46,995 bases of DNA from Thermoplasmata archaeon. Its GTDB lineage: Archaea; Thermoplasmatota; Thermoplasmata; Thermoplasmatales; Thermoplasmataceae. Of the stretch, positions 39,608 to 46,803 are shown piece after piece; position 1 is the stretch's first letter; each line of letters starts with the position of its first letter. The translations under genes were made by a program, and so were the position numbers. The stretch lies in the NCBI GenBank assembly GCA_021818765.1, contig JAKATM010000002.1, forward strand, positions 1 to 46,995. Reading direction: 5' to 3'. Under the pieces are notes generated by a model, which was not told the DNA's origin, ran no database searches, and was given only the letters and a program-made list of their open reading frames with translations.

Positions 39608-42600
39608 ATGCGTTTAAGCCGCTTAAAAGCAACTATGGTATTTGCTGTTGTAATGGTAATGATGTTATCTGGAATGGCAATACTTGCAGAAAATTCCTCA
39701 GCAACAGGAAGTGTCGCAGGTCCTTTTCAATCAACAGTTTCCAAAGCAATTCAAGATACCTCTGTAAATCATATCTCGCCACCATCGGCTGTTCGCTCTT
39801 CTGGTGCGAAAACTCTTTCCCTGTCGCAGCGCATAAATCTTGAGAAATCAGTGATTCAAAACGCAAAGCAGCAAGGAATACCAATGAAGTATCTCTACCT
39901 GCCTGATTACATGTCACAGTCCACAATAAAAAATGGGCACGTAACACTAGCATATTCGTCTTCTCCAGCTCCGATGGGTATAGGCGATTATGGCCTTATG
40001 AACAATTCAGGAAATATAGTTACATATAACTCGACAACAAGCAGTTTTATGGCATCAATAACACTGAATAACCTTTCTGATTTCTATCTTCCAGATAATG
40101 AACCACAGTCAGTTAGCATGCAGTTGAATGCAATCCTGAACAATGTAGACATTCTGGGTAACGACAGCTACAACATGTGGACGCAGAACGTGCTTGACCT
40201 GAGCGTGAGAACTCATACATTGCTCTTCATTGACAATGTTTGGAATTTTTCCTCTCCAAATGCAGTATTAGAACCCGGAACAATACTCTCTTCATCGGCT
40301 GTTTCCGTTCATCATGGAGTTACATCAACTTACCATTATGGTTATAGTGCAGAATATGGATTTACGTTTCCTCTCACTATCGATATGTACCTGAACTCGA
40401 CGCTTGTCAACGGGAACAGTGCAGTTTTCTTTAACGTCTCAATCCCTGAAGATCATGTCAATTGCAACTACGACGAAGTTGTTTTCAACTCAACACATGG
40501 TCAGCCTTCATCATATTCGGCACCTTCTCCGCACTATTTTGTTAGCGGTACGCAACTATCACCGGATGGTTACACTCCTTATGATGCCGAGATAATGATC
40601 GGCGGCCCCGGCGGAGGAAGTAACGCAGACGTATCAACCATTAATGGTACAATGAATCTTCGTTGCATGAACGCGACGACATCAACATACCAGAATGTCC
40701 GGGCAGCTTACGACATCGGATCAGAAACGGGTGAAACCTCCACGGGGGTTGACGTTTCTTTCAACGGTTCAACGGCTGACTTGCAATCTGGGCCATCCTT
40801 AGTTTACGGTCTCTGGAACAACACTTACAGCCAGACCAAATACACCGTTGATTACAGCGGTCTTAGCAGTTCGCTCACTACACCATTCCTCTTTGTGCAG
40901 GATAATGAATCGTTAGCAGCTTGCCTGCAGTTTGGCTGGTCACCATCTGATAACTTTACGCTGCCAACTGCAAATTATGAGTACAAGGCCCTTCTTAATT
41001 CATATAATATAACAAGCGGAACTCTTTCCAATAGTGGAACAACGAATGTTGCCATGGTGGCTAGCACATCGTTGGGACGATATACACCCACAATAGCAAA
41101 TTCAAACTCCCAGCTTTCTGCAATAGCGTCTTCGGGTAGTGGAACAAGCTCCGATCCATATATAATTGCTCCAATTGGATTACATTATGTCACACTCAAT
41201 CCAATCTTCGGGCAGTTTAACGATTTTCTTTACCAGGTTTTTCCTGGAATCTTGTTGCATGGTACGACAGCCCATGTATTGATTTCTAATGCAGACCCTG
41301 CTTTCGATTACGAAGGTTACTGGTATAATTTTGTATACGAAGTGCTGGATTTGCATTATGGTTTCACTCTTCCTACTGGAAATGATCTCCCTACTGAGCT
41401 CTATGACGCGTCCAATGTGACAATCAGCAATGGATTATTTGCTACCTGGTATTTCTGTGACATCCAATCAACAGATGGTTCTGTGATGATCTGGAACTCC
41501 ACTAACCTCTTGATCACCCAGAATACAATCGGGTCTGTCGGAATAGGTATGCTTGTGTATAATTCCCCGTACCAGATGGCAAACATAACCATATATTCAA
41601 ACACTTTTCTCGGTTATAATGTGTTACTTTTCAAAAGCGAAACAGAAAGTATCGCACAACAGTTACAGTTTGATAGCAGCTTCAACGACGGAACTGACCA
41701 GTTTGGTCTTCAAATGTATAGTGGCGGAAACCTGATTTATGGAAATAATTTCACGACCCAAAATCCAGTTTATAGCCCAGAATTCAACTTTTACTGTGGA
41801 TGTCCTGCCACATACAAGGACTCGTGGAATACTACAAACACTGGAAACCAGTATTGGAACTATAATTCGGAAAAGCCTTTTAATGAAAGCGGTATGATCG
41901 CCAGTGGCGCTGATTACTTCCCGGATTCATTTGTAACGGGCGATAATGTTACATTCAAGACTGGTCTGAGCCAGCAAACAAACATTTCAATTGGAGTTTG
42001 TGGCTTGATCGCGCAGGGAACAAATCAAATAAGCATGTATAAGATCTTCAAGAACGACACAAAATACAGTTATTTTGCTGAATATGGAGATCCTGTTGAA
42101 GGATCATCTAGCTTTACGCCTAACAGCTCTAACTTTGTTGTAAATCTTTCGAGCACTAAGTTATTGGACTCGGTTACATTTGATGAGCAAGGGCTACCTT
42201 CAGGAACATCTTGGTCAGTCAATTTGAATGGAACAACTCTTACATCAACCAGTTACTCTATAAAATTCAATGAAACTGCTGGAACTTATAACTACACGGT
42301 AAAGACGGCTGATGTTTCATATGTAGCTGTCATACAGTTTGGCTCTGTAGATGTAACACCATCGACATATGTGGGCGTAGACTTTTCTTATGCCTATAAA
42401 GTGACTTTCAACGAGACTGGTCTTCCAGCATCTACACCATGGTATGTGAACATAAGCGGAGTGCCAGCGTCGGGTTCAATTATTAATCCAAGCTACACCG
42501 CTTATTTGGCGAACGGTTCCTATAGTGTCTCTATAGCTACGAGCGCGAAAGTTTACGATGCGACTTATAATGCTACCATAACGGTGAATGGTAAAAATCT

Positions 42601-43453
42601 GGTTGAACTTGTCTCGTTTTCTCCCGTCCTATACAAGGTCACGTTTACCGAGACTGGTCTTCCAACATCTACACCATGGTATGTGAACATTACGGGAATG
42701 GCATCATCAGGCGCGATAACTAGCATATCATATTCAGTCAATCTGCAGAATAATTCCTACACATTCTCTGTATCTACGCAGAACAAATCATATTCACCAA
42801 CATATACCTCATCGTTCGAGGTTAACGGAAAACCTGTTCCTGTTGCAATAACGTTCTCTCCAGTCCTATACAAGGTCACGTTCACAGAGACTGGGCTCCC
42901 TAGCGGAGACACCTGGTCATTGACGATTAATGGACAGACCAACACAACATCCTCAACTTCAATTAGTGTAATGGAACAAAACGGAACATACTCTTATTCC
43001 GTATCGACCACGAACACGGGATATAAACCTTCAGTGCCGTCATCCACATTCACCGTAAATGGATCCTCTAATTCTGTTTCAGTAGCATTTACTGCAGTCA
43101 CAGTAACGTCGGCTACATACACTGTGACTTTTACCGAAACAGGTCTACCTTCCGGATCTACGTGGTATCTCAATCTGTCGGATGGTAAATCTCTTTCATC
43201 AAGGAGCTCAACAATTACAGTTACCCTTCAAAATGGCAGTTACAGCTATGCTGCCTCATCCAGCGGGTATAACAATCTCACAGGATCAGCTTCTGTTAAT
43301 GGACATAGCCAGACCGTCAACCTGACATTTACGAAGGTGAAGACGCCAACCACTCCATCGTCAAGCAACAATACATTGTATATTGCAGTCGGAATAGTTG
43401 TAGCTGTTATCATAATTGGTGCCGTGGCTCTGGCCCTTAGAAGGAAGAAATAA
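39608..43453 (+). CDS. Thermopsin-like (A5) acid protease with C-terminal repeat domains and membrane anchor
   Basis: Signal-like N-terminus, MGIGDYGLMNNSGNIVTYNS, ISNGLFATWYF...TQNTIGSVGIGM; five xVTFxExGLP repeats; C-terminal TM IAVGIVVAVIIIGAVALALRRKK. Confidence 0.85.
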   Translation: MRLSRLKATMVFAVVMVMMLSGMAILAENSSATGSVAGPFQSTVSKAIQDTSVNHISPPSAVRSSGAKTLSLSQRINLEKSVIQNAKQQGIPMKYLYLPDYMSQSTIKNGHVTLAYSSSPAPMGIGDYGLMNNSGNIVTYNSTTSSFMASITLNNLSDFYLPDNEPQSVSMQLNAILNNVDILGNDSYNMWTQNVLDLSVRTHTLLFIDNVWNFSSPNAVLEPGTILSSSAVSVHHGVTSTYHYGYSAEYGFTFPLTIDMYLNSTLVNGNSAVFFNVSIPEDHVNCNYDEVVFNSTHGQPSSYSAPSPHYFVSGTQLSPDGYTPYDAEIMIGGPGGGSNADVSTINGTMNLRCMNATTSTYQNVRAAYDIGSETGETSTGVDVSFNGSTADLQSGPSLVYGLWNNTYSQTKYTVDYSGLSSSLTTPFLFVQDNESLAACLQFGWSPSDNFTLPTANYEYKALLNSYNITSGTLSNSGTTNVAMVASTSLGRYTPTIANSNSQLSAIASSGSGTSSDPYIIAPIGLHYVTLNPIFGQFNDFLYQVFPGILLHGTTAHVLISNADPAFDYEGYWYNFVYEVLDLHYGFTLPTGNDLPTELYDASNVTISNGLFATWYFCDIQSTDGSVMIWNSTNLLITQNTIGSVGIGMLVYNSPYQMANITIYSNTFLGYNVLLFKSETESIAQQLQFDSSFNDGTDQFGLQMYSGGNLIYGNNFTTQNPVYSPEFNFYCGCPATYKDSWNTTNTGNQYWNYNSEKPFNESGMIASGADYFPDSFVTGDNVTFKTGLSQQTNISIGVCGLIAQGTNQISMYKIFKNDTKYSYFAEYGDPVEGSSSFTPNSSNFVVNLSSTKLLDSVTFDEQGLPSGTSWSVNLNGTTLTSTSYSIKFNETAGTYNYTVKTADVSYVAVIQFGSVDVTPSTYVGVDFSYAYKVTFNETGLPASTPWYVNISGVPASGSIINPSYTAYLANGSYSVSIATSAKVYDATYNATITVNGKNLVELVSFSPVLYKVTFTETGLPTSTPWYVNITGMASSGAITSISYSVNLQNNSYTFSVSTQNKSYSPTYTSSFEVNGKPVPVAITFSPVLYKVTFTETGLPSGDTWSLTINGQTNTTSSTSISVMEQNGTYSYSVSTTNTGYKPSVPSSTFTVNGSSNSVSVAFTAVTVTSATYTVTFTETGLPSGSTWYLNLSDGKSLSSRSSTITVTLQNGSYSYAASSSGYNNLTGSASVNGHSQTVNLTFTKVKTPTTPSSSNNTLYIAVGIVVAVIIIGAVALALRRKK
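42168..43344 (+). repeat. Five tandem protein repeats (~75-84 aa) inside the thermopsin-like gene
   Basis: SVTFDEQGLPSGTSW, YKVTFNETGLPASTPWYVN, YKVTFTETGLPTSTPWYVN, YKVTFTETGLPSGDTW, YTVTFTETGLPSGSTWYLN; copies at 42395, 42632 and 42869 are spaced by exactly 237 nt. Confidence 0.9.
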
Positions 43454-43621: not shown

Positions 43622-44554
43622 ATGAGAATCATAGATTTGCATGAAGATTTCGGTATTACGTCATCTACTGAAAATACCTTTACTGAAACAAAGCAATCAT
43701 CTATAGAAATCCTAAAAAAATATGGTGATGTCATCATATTTTCTGCAATTTATCCTTTTCATCGTGTGTGGTCCAAAAACATTGACAAGGTCATGCTCGG
43801 AGAGGAGCATATAGATTACACATGGGTTCCGGATCAACTCGGAATAATGCACCAGGTGAACTTTTATTCAACTTTACGACACAAGGGAATTGTTGACTTT
43901 GTTCGCAGAAAGACTGATATTAGAGAAGAAGGGACAAAATTCTTGATTTCAATGGAAGGGGCGGATACAATAGCTGAACCAACTGATATATATTCCCTTT
44001 ACGACCTGGGAGTCCGTTGCATAGGGTTCACATGGAATTACGACAACAAGTACGCGGCATCCTGTTATTCGAAGAAGGACTATGGATTGACGGGGGCAGG
44101 TGAAGAACTAGTCGATCTATGCAATGAACTGGGTATTATAGTTGATACTGCCCATACGAGCAGGCAGACAACTCTTGAAATATGCAAGTATTCAAAGAAA
44201 CCCGTAATAATGAGTCATTCCAATGTGAAGAGCCTCCACGATCATCCGAGGAATGCCGATGACGAAATGATTGAGGCAATACATTCAAAGCATGGTGTCT
44301 TGGGTGTTAGCGGAATAGCAGAAATGCTTTCCTCAGATCCCACTTTGAATGATCTGGTAAAAAACGTTAACTACATCGGAGAGAACTTCGGCTGGGACAT
44401 GGTTGCCATTGGCTCCGATTTTCTTGGAATGAGAGGAGGAACCAAGTGTTTTACTTCCTTCCAGGACATATCGAGGCTGGGCGAATTAATCGAACAAAAA
44501 GATCAACTACTTCATGCCAACGTTGAGCGCGTAATCAGGGCAGTTCTGAAATGA
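43622..44554 (+). CDS. M19 family (membrane/renal) dipeptidase
   Basis: DLHEDF (HxD), SMEGADTI, VDTAHTSRQT, VIMSHSNVKSLHDHPRNADDEMI, AIGSDFLGM. Confidence 0.9.
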   Translation: MRIIDLHEDFGITSSTENTFTETKQSSIEILKKYGDVIIFSAIYPFHRVWSKNIDKVMLGEEHIDYTWVPDQLGIMHQVNFYSTLRHKGIVDFVRRKTDIREEGTKFLISMEGADTIAEPTDIYSLYDLGVRCIGFTWNYDNKYAASCYSKKDYGLTGAGEELVDLCNELGIIVDTAHTSRQTTLEICKYSKKPVIMSHSNVKSLHDHPRNADDEMIEAIHSKHGVLGVSGIAEMLSSDPTLNDLVKNVNYIGENFGWDMVAIGSDFLGMRGGTKCFTSFQDISRLGELIEQKDQLLHANVERVIRAVLK

Positions 44555-44596
44555 GCTGAGCGGGTAAACATTTTATGCGGTTTGTGATACGATTGC

Positions 44597-45691
44597 ATGG
44601 CGTTCAAGCTTGGAATTGAAAACCTTCTTCAGGATCTGCCGAAGAAGCCAATAGCAATGCTCACAAACGCGTCTGGAGTGACGCAGGATCTTGTTCAAAA
44701 CATTGATCTCATGAAGCAGAAAGGTGCCCAGATCACGAGGATATTTGCACCCGAGCATGGGATTTATGCAGCTTTAAAGAATGGAGAGATAGTTCCGGAC
44801 GAAACTTACGCAGGCATTCCTGTCAAGTCAATCTATACGGAAAAATCGCATACTATAAATCCAAAGGAACTTGAAGACATCGAGGCCGTCGTATACGATA
44901 TCCAGGATGGCGGTGCGAGACCTTATACGTATGTGTCGTCATTGAAGCATCTATTGTCTGCTGCAGCCAGCGCAGGTGCAAAGGTTATAGTTTGCGACCG
45001 TCCGGCACCTCTTTCTGGATCAATAGTGGATGGACCAATGTTGAAGCCTTCTTTCAAATCCTTTGTGGGAATAGATGAATTTCCCCTTAGGTACGGGATG
45101 ACGATAGGCGAAATGGCTCTTTACCTGAACAGGGATGTAAAAGCGGACCTTGAGATCTCAAAGATGTCCGGTTACAAGAGATCTGAATTTTATGATGCGT
45201 ATCTAAAACATTTTGTTCCACCCTCGTTGAATCTTCCAACGCTGAATTCACTGTTTGTGTTTGTCGGAATGGTTTTGGTAGAGTCATCCAAAGTAAGCGT
45301 TGGACGTGGCACTCCTTACCCTTTCTCGCAGTTCGGATACAATGGAGCATGGTCGCTTGACCTTCGGCAAGAAAAGGGGGCATTATTCAGAAAGATAATG
45401 TTCATACCAAGCCTTGATCCATTGGGCGGGCAGAGGTTAGAGGGTTTTTCTATACACATTGAGAACCGCAAGGTGTTTAGAAGCATAACGCTCGCAATTC
45501 GCGTCCTGAAGCACATTTACTCGATCGATCCTGGCAACATCGACCTGAAGCATCTCTCCATTCTCTACGGATCTGACGATCTCAGAAAGTTCCTTGAAGG
45601 CGAAGTGAGTGTGGATGAAATAGCCGCAAGCTGGGCAGAATCGGCGCGTGACTATCTTGAAGCGAGGAGAACATACCTCCTTTATGATTGA
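44597..45691 (+). CDS. DUF1343/NamZ-like (exo-beta-N-acetylmuramidase family) protein, no signal peptide
   Basis: AMLTNASGVTQDLVQNIDLM, RIFAPEHGIYA, VVYDIQDGGARPYTYVSSL, VCDRPAPLSG, VDGPMLKPSFKSFVGIDEFPLRYGMTIGEMALYLN. Confidence 0.9.
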   Translation: MAFKLGIENLLQDLPKKPIAMLTNASGVTQDLVQNIDLMKQKGAQITRIFAPEHGIYAALKNGEIVPDETYAGIPVKSIYTEKSHTINPKELEDIEAVVYDIQDGGARPYTYVSSLKHLLSAAASAGAKVIVCDRPAPLSGSIVDGPMLKPSFKSFVGIDEFPLRYGMTIGEMALYLNRDVKADLEISKMSGYKRSEFYDAYLKHFVPPSLNLPTLNSLFVFVGMVLVESSKVSVGRGTPYPFSQFGYNGAWSLDLRQEKGALFRKIMFIPSLDPLGGQRLEGFSIHIENRKVFRSITLAIRVLKHIYSIDPGNIDLKHLSILYGSDDLRKFLEGEVSVDEIAASWAESARDYLEARRTYLLYD

Positions 45692-46803
45692 TTATCAGAT
45701 CAATAGCTAATAATATTTACCAAAGATTACGGCTTATGAAGATTAAAGGCATTGAATATAAAAAGATCAACATTGAGATGAAAAAGCCATTCAAGATTGC
45801 TCTTGGCTCAACAGACTTTTATGAAGGTTATTTTGTAAAAGTTTCCACGGATAATGGTATCACAGGTTATGGCGAAGCAATTCCAACCCCGTTCATAACG
45901 GGCGACACAATGGGATCGGTCGAGGCAGAGCTTTCTATTTTTGCTCAGGCTTTAAAGGGCATGGATTTTTCTACGGAAATGATAAACGAGAGAATGAAAG
46001 CACTGGCAAAGAGTTCAAAGGCGAGCAGGGCGGCAGTAGACATGGCGCTTTATGATATACTTGGTAAGAAGGCTGATCTCCCTCTTTACATGGTTCTAGG
46101 TGGTTTTAGATCCAGCATGAAGACGTCCTATACTGTCGATCTCGTTGATGCTGCACATGCCAAGGTTCAGGCAAAGGAACTCCTGGATGATGGTGTCGAG
46201 TTCTTCAAGATAAAGCTAGGCAAATCTGTAGATGAAGATTTTGAGAGAGTCAAGGCAGTAAGGGAAGTAATAGGACCCGATCGATGGATATGCGTTGACT
46301 TCAACCAGTCTTACAGTCCAAAGAAAGCAGCTCTACTTTCCGAGAAGATAGACAAGCTAGGCATTGAATTTCTGGAGCAGCCGGTGGCAAGAGATGATAT
46401 CAAAGGCATGAAGTTCGTGCGCATGAGTTCTTCCATACCAGTCATGGCGGATGAAGCAGTATTTACATTGGCCGATCTTAGCAATGTCGTCTATGAGGAA
46501 GCCGCTGACTATGTAAACATAAAGCTCATGAAATGTGGCGGAATCACTGATGCCCTCAAGATCGTAAAAGCAGCACAGGTCTTCAGGATGCCCTGCATGA
46601 TGGGGTGCATGGTTGAGACCAAACTCGCAAATACGGCAGGTCTGCATGTTGCCCTTGCACAGCCAAATTTCGCATATACAGATCTTGATGGTTTCTCGAG
46701 CCTAAAGGAACCGGGCGTAAACGGTGGCCTTAGCTTTGTGAAGGGGATTAACTACCCGCCCAAAGATAGCGGTATCGGTGCGTCTCCCCTCGCCGGTTTC
46801 TGA
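45688..46803 (+). CDS. L-Ala-D/L-Glu-type dipeptide epimerase (enolase superfamily)
   Basis: FFKIKLGK (KxK), CVDFNQSY, FLEQP, PVMADEAVF, YVNIKLMKCGG, and C-terminal TDLDGF (DxD) as in dipeptide epimerases; start probably ATG 45736. Confidence 0.88.
   Translation: MIIRSIANNIYQRLRLMKIKGIEYKKINIEMKKPFKIALGSTDFYEGYFVKVSTDNGITGYGEAIPTPFITGDTMGSVEAELSIFAQALKGMDFSTEMINERMKALAKSSKASRAAVDMALYDILGKKADLPLYMVLGGFRSSMKTSYTVDLVDAAHAKVQAKELLDDGVEFFKIKLGKSVDEDFERVKAVREVIGPDRWICVDFNQSYSPKKAALLSEKIDKLGIEFLEQPVARDDIKGMKFVRMSSSIPVMADEAVFTLADLSNVVYEEAADYVNIKLMKCGGITDALKIVKAAQVFRMPCMMGCMVETKLANTAGLHVALAQPNFAYTDLDGFSSLKEPGVNGGLSFVKGINYPPKDSGIGASPLAGF

Follow-up and report, generated by a model that had tools for sequence, protein, structure and literature searches.

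Gene content at the contig end

The window, i.e., the whole stretch of DNA that was analysed (46,995 nucleotides), is the entire contig C162 of a 1.65-Mb Thermoplasmatota genome (G000), which is 79% complete and has a contamination score of 5.8%. The following genes were found at its end:

43622..44554, plus strand: M19 dipeptidase, 310 aa (Peptidase_M19 profile)
44597..45691, plus strand: NamZ of the exo-beta-N-acetylmuramidase family (GH171), 364 aa (NamZ_N and NamZ_C)
45736..46803, plus strand: dipeptide epimerase of the enolase superfamily, AEE-like, 355 aa
46809..46995, minus strand: 3' end of a GH3/NagZ gene, 61 residues and stop, cut by the contig end

A preliminary description of this DNA had reported three co-directional reading frames at 43622–46803, and the profile search proposed there confirmed them: the Pfam domains of all three products scored well above cut-off, and the family assignments are certain. 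These coordinates hold for the trio but leave out the remainder of the cluster, which is truncated where the contig stops at 46995. The overlap between the NamZ and epimerase genes given in the same description exists only with the start codon TTG 45688. The epimerase frame is open from TTG 45688 or ATG 45736, with the stop side at 46803, and its conserved N-terminal sequence (MKIKGIEY...), which aligns with 3jva and 1jpm from residue 1 onwards, is encoded from ATG 45736. With this start, the M19/NamZ and NamZ/epimerase spacers measure 42 and 44 bp; TTG 45688 is a less likely alternative start. Since N-terminal hydrophobic segments were absent from M19, NamZ and the epimerase in the window translations inspected, all three proteins are probably cytoplasmic, in agreement with the lack of a NamZ signal peptide noted earlier. 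Directly upstream of the trio (39608–43453), a large secreted thermopsin with C-terminal repeats is encoded; the same gene lies upstream in the genome G113 and, as a fragment, in G114.

The M19 dipeptidase matched Peptidase_M19 (PF01244) with 225.6 bits against a cut-off of 26 in the Pfam search. All six ligands of the binuclear metal centre (HxD, E, H, H, D), which had been thought to be kept, are intact, namely, H7 and D9 of HED, E112 of MEGAD, H178, H199 and D266. Relatives in the PDB include GliJ 5lx0 (E=2e-26), as well as 2i5g and 3neh. M19 probably performs the last step, in which the Ala-Glu dipeptide (L,L or L,D) is cleaved.

The second protein, proposed to be DUF1343/NamZ-like, carries both domains of the NamZ/GH171 family: NamZ_N (PF07075, 202 bits against 26.9) and NamZ_C (PF20732, 99.6 bits against 25). 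The motifs PEHG, DIQDGG, DRPAP, GMTIGE and VGRGT are kept, the family-invariant residues are present in an alignment of 20 sequences, and the PDB relatives are 4jja (E=8e-41) and 4k05 (E=4e-39). In a tree built by a quick method, the window's NamZ type forms its own deep clade with 100% SH-aLRT support, and a second archaeal NamZ clade stands elsewhere in the same tree.

In the epimerase, MR_MLE_C (172.1 bits) and MR_MLE_N (49 bits) were detected far over the Pfam cut-off. The KxK and DxD motifs already noted are present as K158-I-K160 and TDLDGF at 315, together with the Asp/Glu/Asp ligands D188, E214 and D239 and the second-side lysine K263; these catalytic residues are invariant among 10 archaeal sequences. 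The best PDB matches were 3jva, which is the nearest solved epimerase, and 1jpm/1tkk. The specificity for Ala-Glu dipeptides suggested before was not upheld: the equivalog profile for L-Ala-D/L-Glu epimerases, NF041118, gave 237 bits against a cut-off of 500, and G24 of the window enzyme, like G24 of 3jva, aligns to R24 of the B. subtilis enzyme, the arginine that binds Glu there. From its sequence, the enzyme is to be classed as a dipeptide epimerase only.

Continuation of the cluster and its enzyme families

The last 187 bases of the window are the end of the NagZ gene on the minus strand and match the G113 gene for NagZ with 86% identity at the DNA level. The end of C162 overlaps contig C175 of the same genome over 152 bp (150/152 identical). 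Contig C175 contains genes for NagZ, an S15/CocE hydrolase, an AmiE-like serine hydrolase, MurQ, NagA, an SIS-type deaminase and the start of an NlpC/P60 protein. Contig C138 begins inside an NlpC/P60 gene, followed by genes for AnmK, OppABCDF, a DUF218 protein, the protein c22, an S13 peptidase and a LysA-like gene. We infer the junction of C175 and C138, which share no sequence overlap, from the YkfC-like gene split between them and from the genomes G112 and G113, in which the genes follow the same order. The BadF-type kinase of G000, matching the solved MurNAc/GlcNAc kinase 8zo3 (E=4e-22), is encoded on the separate contig C154, and LdcA on contig C174. The search for MurQ, AnmK and NagZ suggested in the preliminary description thus found all three in the window's genome, on contigs continuing the cluster. 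The trio is very probably one end of a larger island for the catabolism of murein fragments.

Family membership was assessed with representative island genes from close relatives and curated cut-offs. MurQ scored 304–312 bits with NF003915 (cut-off 168) and, with 264–266 bits, missed the equivalog cut-off of 302 of TIGR00274; both catalytic glutamates of the etherase are present (ELDPTYG, EGSEDD), and no signal peptide was found in MurQ. NagA was identified by TIGR00221 (255 bits against 226), AnmK by a full-length match to PF03702 (266 bits against 24), and LysA by TIGR01048 (332 and 348 bits against 298). The nearest solved relative of AnmK is levoglucosan kinase. LdcA passed the cut-offs of PF02016 and PF17676, and the NlpC/P60 protein with a dipeptidyl-peptidase SH3 domain and the S13 peptidase also passed curated cut-offs; the catalytic Cys, His and His are kept in the YkfC-like enzyme. 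NagZ retains KHFPGHG, DSH and the nucleophile TDS; its full-length relative gave 206 bits with PF00933 and missed the strict NCBIfam equivalog cut-off by 16 bits. The AmiE-like protein has, above the curated cut-off, the class-C beta-lactamase fold, the family of B. subtilis AmiE. It aligns with its counterpart from the Bacillales NamZ locus, and SxxK, YSD and HTG are kept. Accordingly, NagZ, NamZ, a candidate MurNAc-L-Ala amidase, a sugar kinase, MurQ and NagA are encoded together, with the BadF-type kinase of G000 on its own contig.

Genes of DapB were detected in some island genomes, including that of Cuniculiplasma divulgatum, and as a fragment in G000, and were not found in the 99%-complete genomes G063, G074 and G095, all of which have LysA-like genes. 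The presence of DapB weakens the assumption that LysA always depends on salvaged diaminopimelate (DAP), since in the DapB-bearing island genomes it need not do so. A further murein-peptide enzyme, a DppA-like M55 D-aminopeptidase, is encoded in G074 (L096:371-1192) beside the YkfC-like and LysA genes. Genes of a GlcD/GlcF-type FAD and iron-sulfur oxidase are present in the islands of family f5 (L032, L043, L044, L099 and L106), where they may plausibly handle the D-lactate that MurQ sets free.

The protein c22 (L103:7961-9178 and nine relatives in an alignment) is recurrent and was found in ten islands. It has hydrophobic segments at both ends, an Ig/PKD-like domain and an invariant pair of motifs, SEDCAHFVSE and GDV...GH. 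Matches to Amidase_6 and NLPC_P60 were sub-threshold only, hhalign against the YkfC-like family gave a probability of only 5%, around the His motif, and the AlphaFold2 model, with a mean pLDDT of 43.5, was too poor for use. The protein is a candidate for a membrane-anchored Cys/His enzyme, possibly a murein peptidase or amidase at the surface.

Distribution and evolution in the order

Among 117 genomes of the order, with a score above 200 bits required for genuine MurQ, NamZ and MurQ were each found in 22 and occurred together in 21 (Fisher p = 6e-21, shared ancestry ignored). About 69 further genomes gave TIGR00274 matches below 40 bits, which were attributed to other SIS proteins and discarded. 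AnmK is present in 11/117 genomes, all inside the NamZ/MurQ set, and the NlpC/P60 enzyme in 28/117, including all 22 MurQ genomes. Twenty NamZ neighbourhoods share the epimerase, NagZ, AmiE-like protein, NagA, MurQ, S13 peptidase, LysA and Opp transporter in shuffled order. Gene-neighbourhood conservation, proposed as a check in the preliminary description, therefore holds for the set across the order, but not for an intact three-gene unit, with M19 being specific to one genus.

M19 adjoins NamZ in all five genomes of the window's genus (g1) that carry NamZ and is a cluster member in g1 only; the association of the epimerase with NamZ is wider and reaches beyond this genus. The M19 family occurs in 43/117 genomes of the order, including island-free ones, and LdcA in 62/117, also without the island. 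Since both are so widespread, they are weak evidence and were rejected as island markers. A second, unlinked M19 gene was found in most NamZ-bearing genomes of the genus; in G000 it lies on contig C27 (26926-27858), and the matched stretch contains an internal TGA.

In the genera g4, g5, g9 and g29, the set is present in some species and absent from sister species, which suggests that the set is gained or lost as a whole. The MurQs encoded in the islands of the order group in a single clade (100/99 support) that separates the families within it, and this phylogeny indicates an acquisition long ago, probably from a bacterial source, with patchy loss afterwards. The gene of MurB was absent from all 22 MurQ genomes and was detected in 1/117 genomes of the order, on a contig (L213, G024:C127) that also has a MurC-like fragment and is probably a bacterial contaminant. 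The contig of L223 (G392:C84), with MurQ beside a RecR-like gene, is probably a bacterial contaminant as well.

The complete single-contig genome G048, taken as that of the cultured wall-less C. divulgatum S5, contains two genes of NamZ and genes of MurQ, the epimerase, NagZ, the AmiE-like protein, NagA, the YkfC-like enzyme, LdcA and LysA over about 30 kb; C. divulgatum S5 thus appears to carry the set. The strain's genome paper presents a cell-wall-deficient scavenger whose lysine synthesis is incomplete, and the word ‘peptidoglycan’ occurs nowhere in it (PMC5155288). In G412, from another order of the class, genes for AnmK, MurQ, the AmiE-like protein, NagA, NagZ, BadF, YkfC and the epimerase lie side by side (L220). 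A second, phylogenetically distinct MurQ was found at L053 (G113:C44), L054 (G053:C41) and L220:12490-13395; in G113 and G053 it adjoins genes of an Opp transporter, and in G053 and G412 paired phosphatase/sulfatase-like genes are close by.

Proposed pathway, alternatives and relation to known systems

In all likelihood, the island serves the catabolism of imported muropeptides in an archaeon without peptidoglycan. The presence and linkage of the genes, their families and intact catalytic motifs, their co-occurrence and their trees were established directly; on this basis, we infer the following substrates, sequence of steps, mode of import and role in nutrition. Muropeptides from dead or growing bacteria would be imported via the OppABCDF-type transporter; transporters of the Opp type import ordinary peptides too. 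In the cytoplasm, NagZ and NamZ would take GlcNAc and MurNAc off the glycan part, the MurNAc-L-Ala amide would be cut by the AmiE-like serine hydrolase, the S13 (PBP4-like) and LdcA peptidases would trim D-Ala, and the YkfC-like NlpC/P60 enzyme would free L-Ala-D-Glu from the diaminopimelate end. L-Ala-D-Glu would be converted by the epimerase to L-Ala-L-Glu for cleavage by the M19 dipeptidase, and meso-DAP by LysA to lysine. AnmK and the BadF-type kinase would phosphorylate (anhydro)MurNAc and GlcNAc, MurQ would strip the lactyl ether to yield GlcNAc-6-P and D-lactate, and NagA with the SIS deaminase would lead to fructose-6-P; D-lactate could be oxidised by GlcD/GlcF in some relatives. The least certain steps include the release of fragments outside, in which c22, of no described family, may help, the putative MurNAc-L-Ala amidase role of the AmiE-like protein, based on homology to the Bacillales neighbour gene, the presumed action of AnmK on (anhydro)MurNAc and the substrate of the epimerase.

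The preliminary description had offered two readings, the scavenging of bacterial wall fragments and the repurposing of the enzymes. At the genomic level, scavenging is strongly supported, since MurQ, AnmK and NagZ are present in the archaeon's own genome and the set is conserved in the order. Repurposing for another pool of lactyl-sugars, anhydro-sugars or glycopeptides, e.g., own surface glycans, levoglucosan or ordinary peptides, would fit the levoglucosan kinase as the best solved relative of AnmK, the closeness of the epimerase to 3jva, without R24, and the commonness of M19 and LdcA outside the island. However, MurQ, NamZ, AnmK and YkfC appear and vanish together, with the AmiE-like protein and NagZ adjoining, the catalytic motifs of the island enzymes are kept, and a whole pathway with a lactyl-ether lyase matches no other known compound. 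No role of MurQ is known outside MurNAc metabolism, which makes repurposing much less likely than scavenging, and it is regarded as improbable.

Even less probable is a role in defence or detoxification, in which the island would destroy muropeptides or wall-derived inhibitors, or aid bacterial killing, rather than feed the cell. Bacteria-killing murein hydrolases have been described from archaea, with homologues in Thermoplasmatota among others (PMC12352652), and the presumably membrane-anchored Cys/His protein c22 occurs in many islands; but the trio and MurQ have no signal peptides, and MurQ, NagA, the deaminase and LysA feed central metabolism, although defence and feeding can coexist. Bacterial contamination, for which the score of this metagenome assembly might speak, has a negligible probability: the contig also contains the thermopsin and, judging from sequence, genes of a family B DNA polymerase and an archaeal-type tRNA-guanine transglycosylase, and the set was found in four same-genus genomes and in the complete genome taken as C. 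divulgatum S5. In the trees, archaeal MurQ and the NamZ type of the window each occupy a deep clade of their own, and this, with the genomes of relatives, rules out recent contamination for the window.

Catabolism of muropeptides remains the preferred reading and suggests that a wall-less acid-loving archaeon and at least 20 relatives feed on bacterial wall fragments. Thermoplasmatales probably live partly on murein, obtaining sugar phosphates, D-lactate, glutamate and lysine by means of an acquired island, with c22 possibly aiding release. Among the pools of bacterial necromass, murein is one of the largest, and, to our knowledge, archaea are normally left out among its consumers. If the proposal is true, archaea eating murein that they never make would add a new trophic link to acidic ecosystems, part of the dependence on bacterial extracts and neighbours might be explained, and a long pathway would have been transferred between domains. 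C. divulgatum S5, which appears to carry the set, is in culture, and the proposal is thus directly testable.

The enzymes are of known kinds, and their near-complete set in murein-free archaea appears to be the new part. No report of an archaeal muropeptide-salvage pathway was found in the open-access literature searched. Fidelibacter multiformis uses foreign muropeptides as a source of carbon and energy, with D-lactate released from MurNAc-6P, but it is a bacterium and also builds its own wall from them, whereas the archaeon has no wall (PMC11652737). The archaeal peptidoglycan hydrolases that kill bacteria are likewise aimed at bacterial murein but differ in being secreted enzymes for killing; muropeptides, recycling and salvage go unmentioned in that text (PMC12352652).

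E. coli recycling (AmpG, NagZ, AmpD, AnmK, MurQ, MpaA, YcjG, LdcA) has NagZ, AnmK, MurQ, the epimerase and LdcA in common with the archaeal island, as well as cytoplasmic digestion. AmpG and AmpD were not seen in the archaeal islands, and NamZ, the AmiE-like amidase and the NlpC/P60 peptidase would stand in for them. With MurB absent from all MurQ genomes, products are not returned to the cell's own murein synthesis, so that the pathway is one of catabolism, not recycling. The enzyme families are the same as those of the rescue pathway (NagZ/YbbD, AmiE/YbbE, NamZ/YbbC, MurQ) and YkfABCD of B. subtilis; the AmiE-NagZ-NamZ-MurQ core is encoded by neighbouring genes in Bacillales NamZ loci, and YkfC- and YkfB-like genes serve the peptide part. 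In contrast to B. subtilis, the archaeon makes no murein into which products could be recycled, NamZ has no export signal, nor have NagZ and the AmiE-like protein one in their first residues, and the island adds LysA and S13. No PTS was seen in the islands of the window's order, and entry would be through an ABC transporter, followed by AnmK and BadF-type kinases. Elsewhere in the phylum, the MurQ gene of G135 directly follows a gene for a mannose-family PTS EIIB-like protein (L222:9079-10412, G135:C58), and PTS-like uptake is possible in this archaeon.
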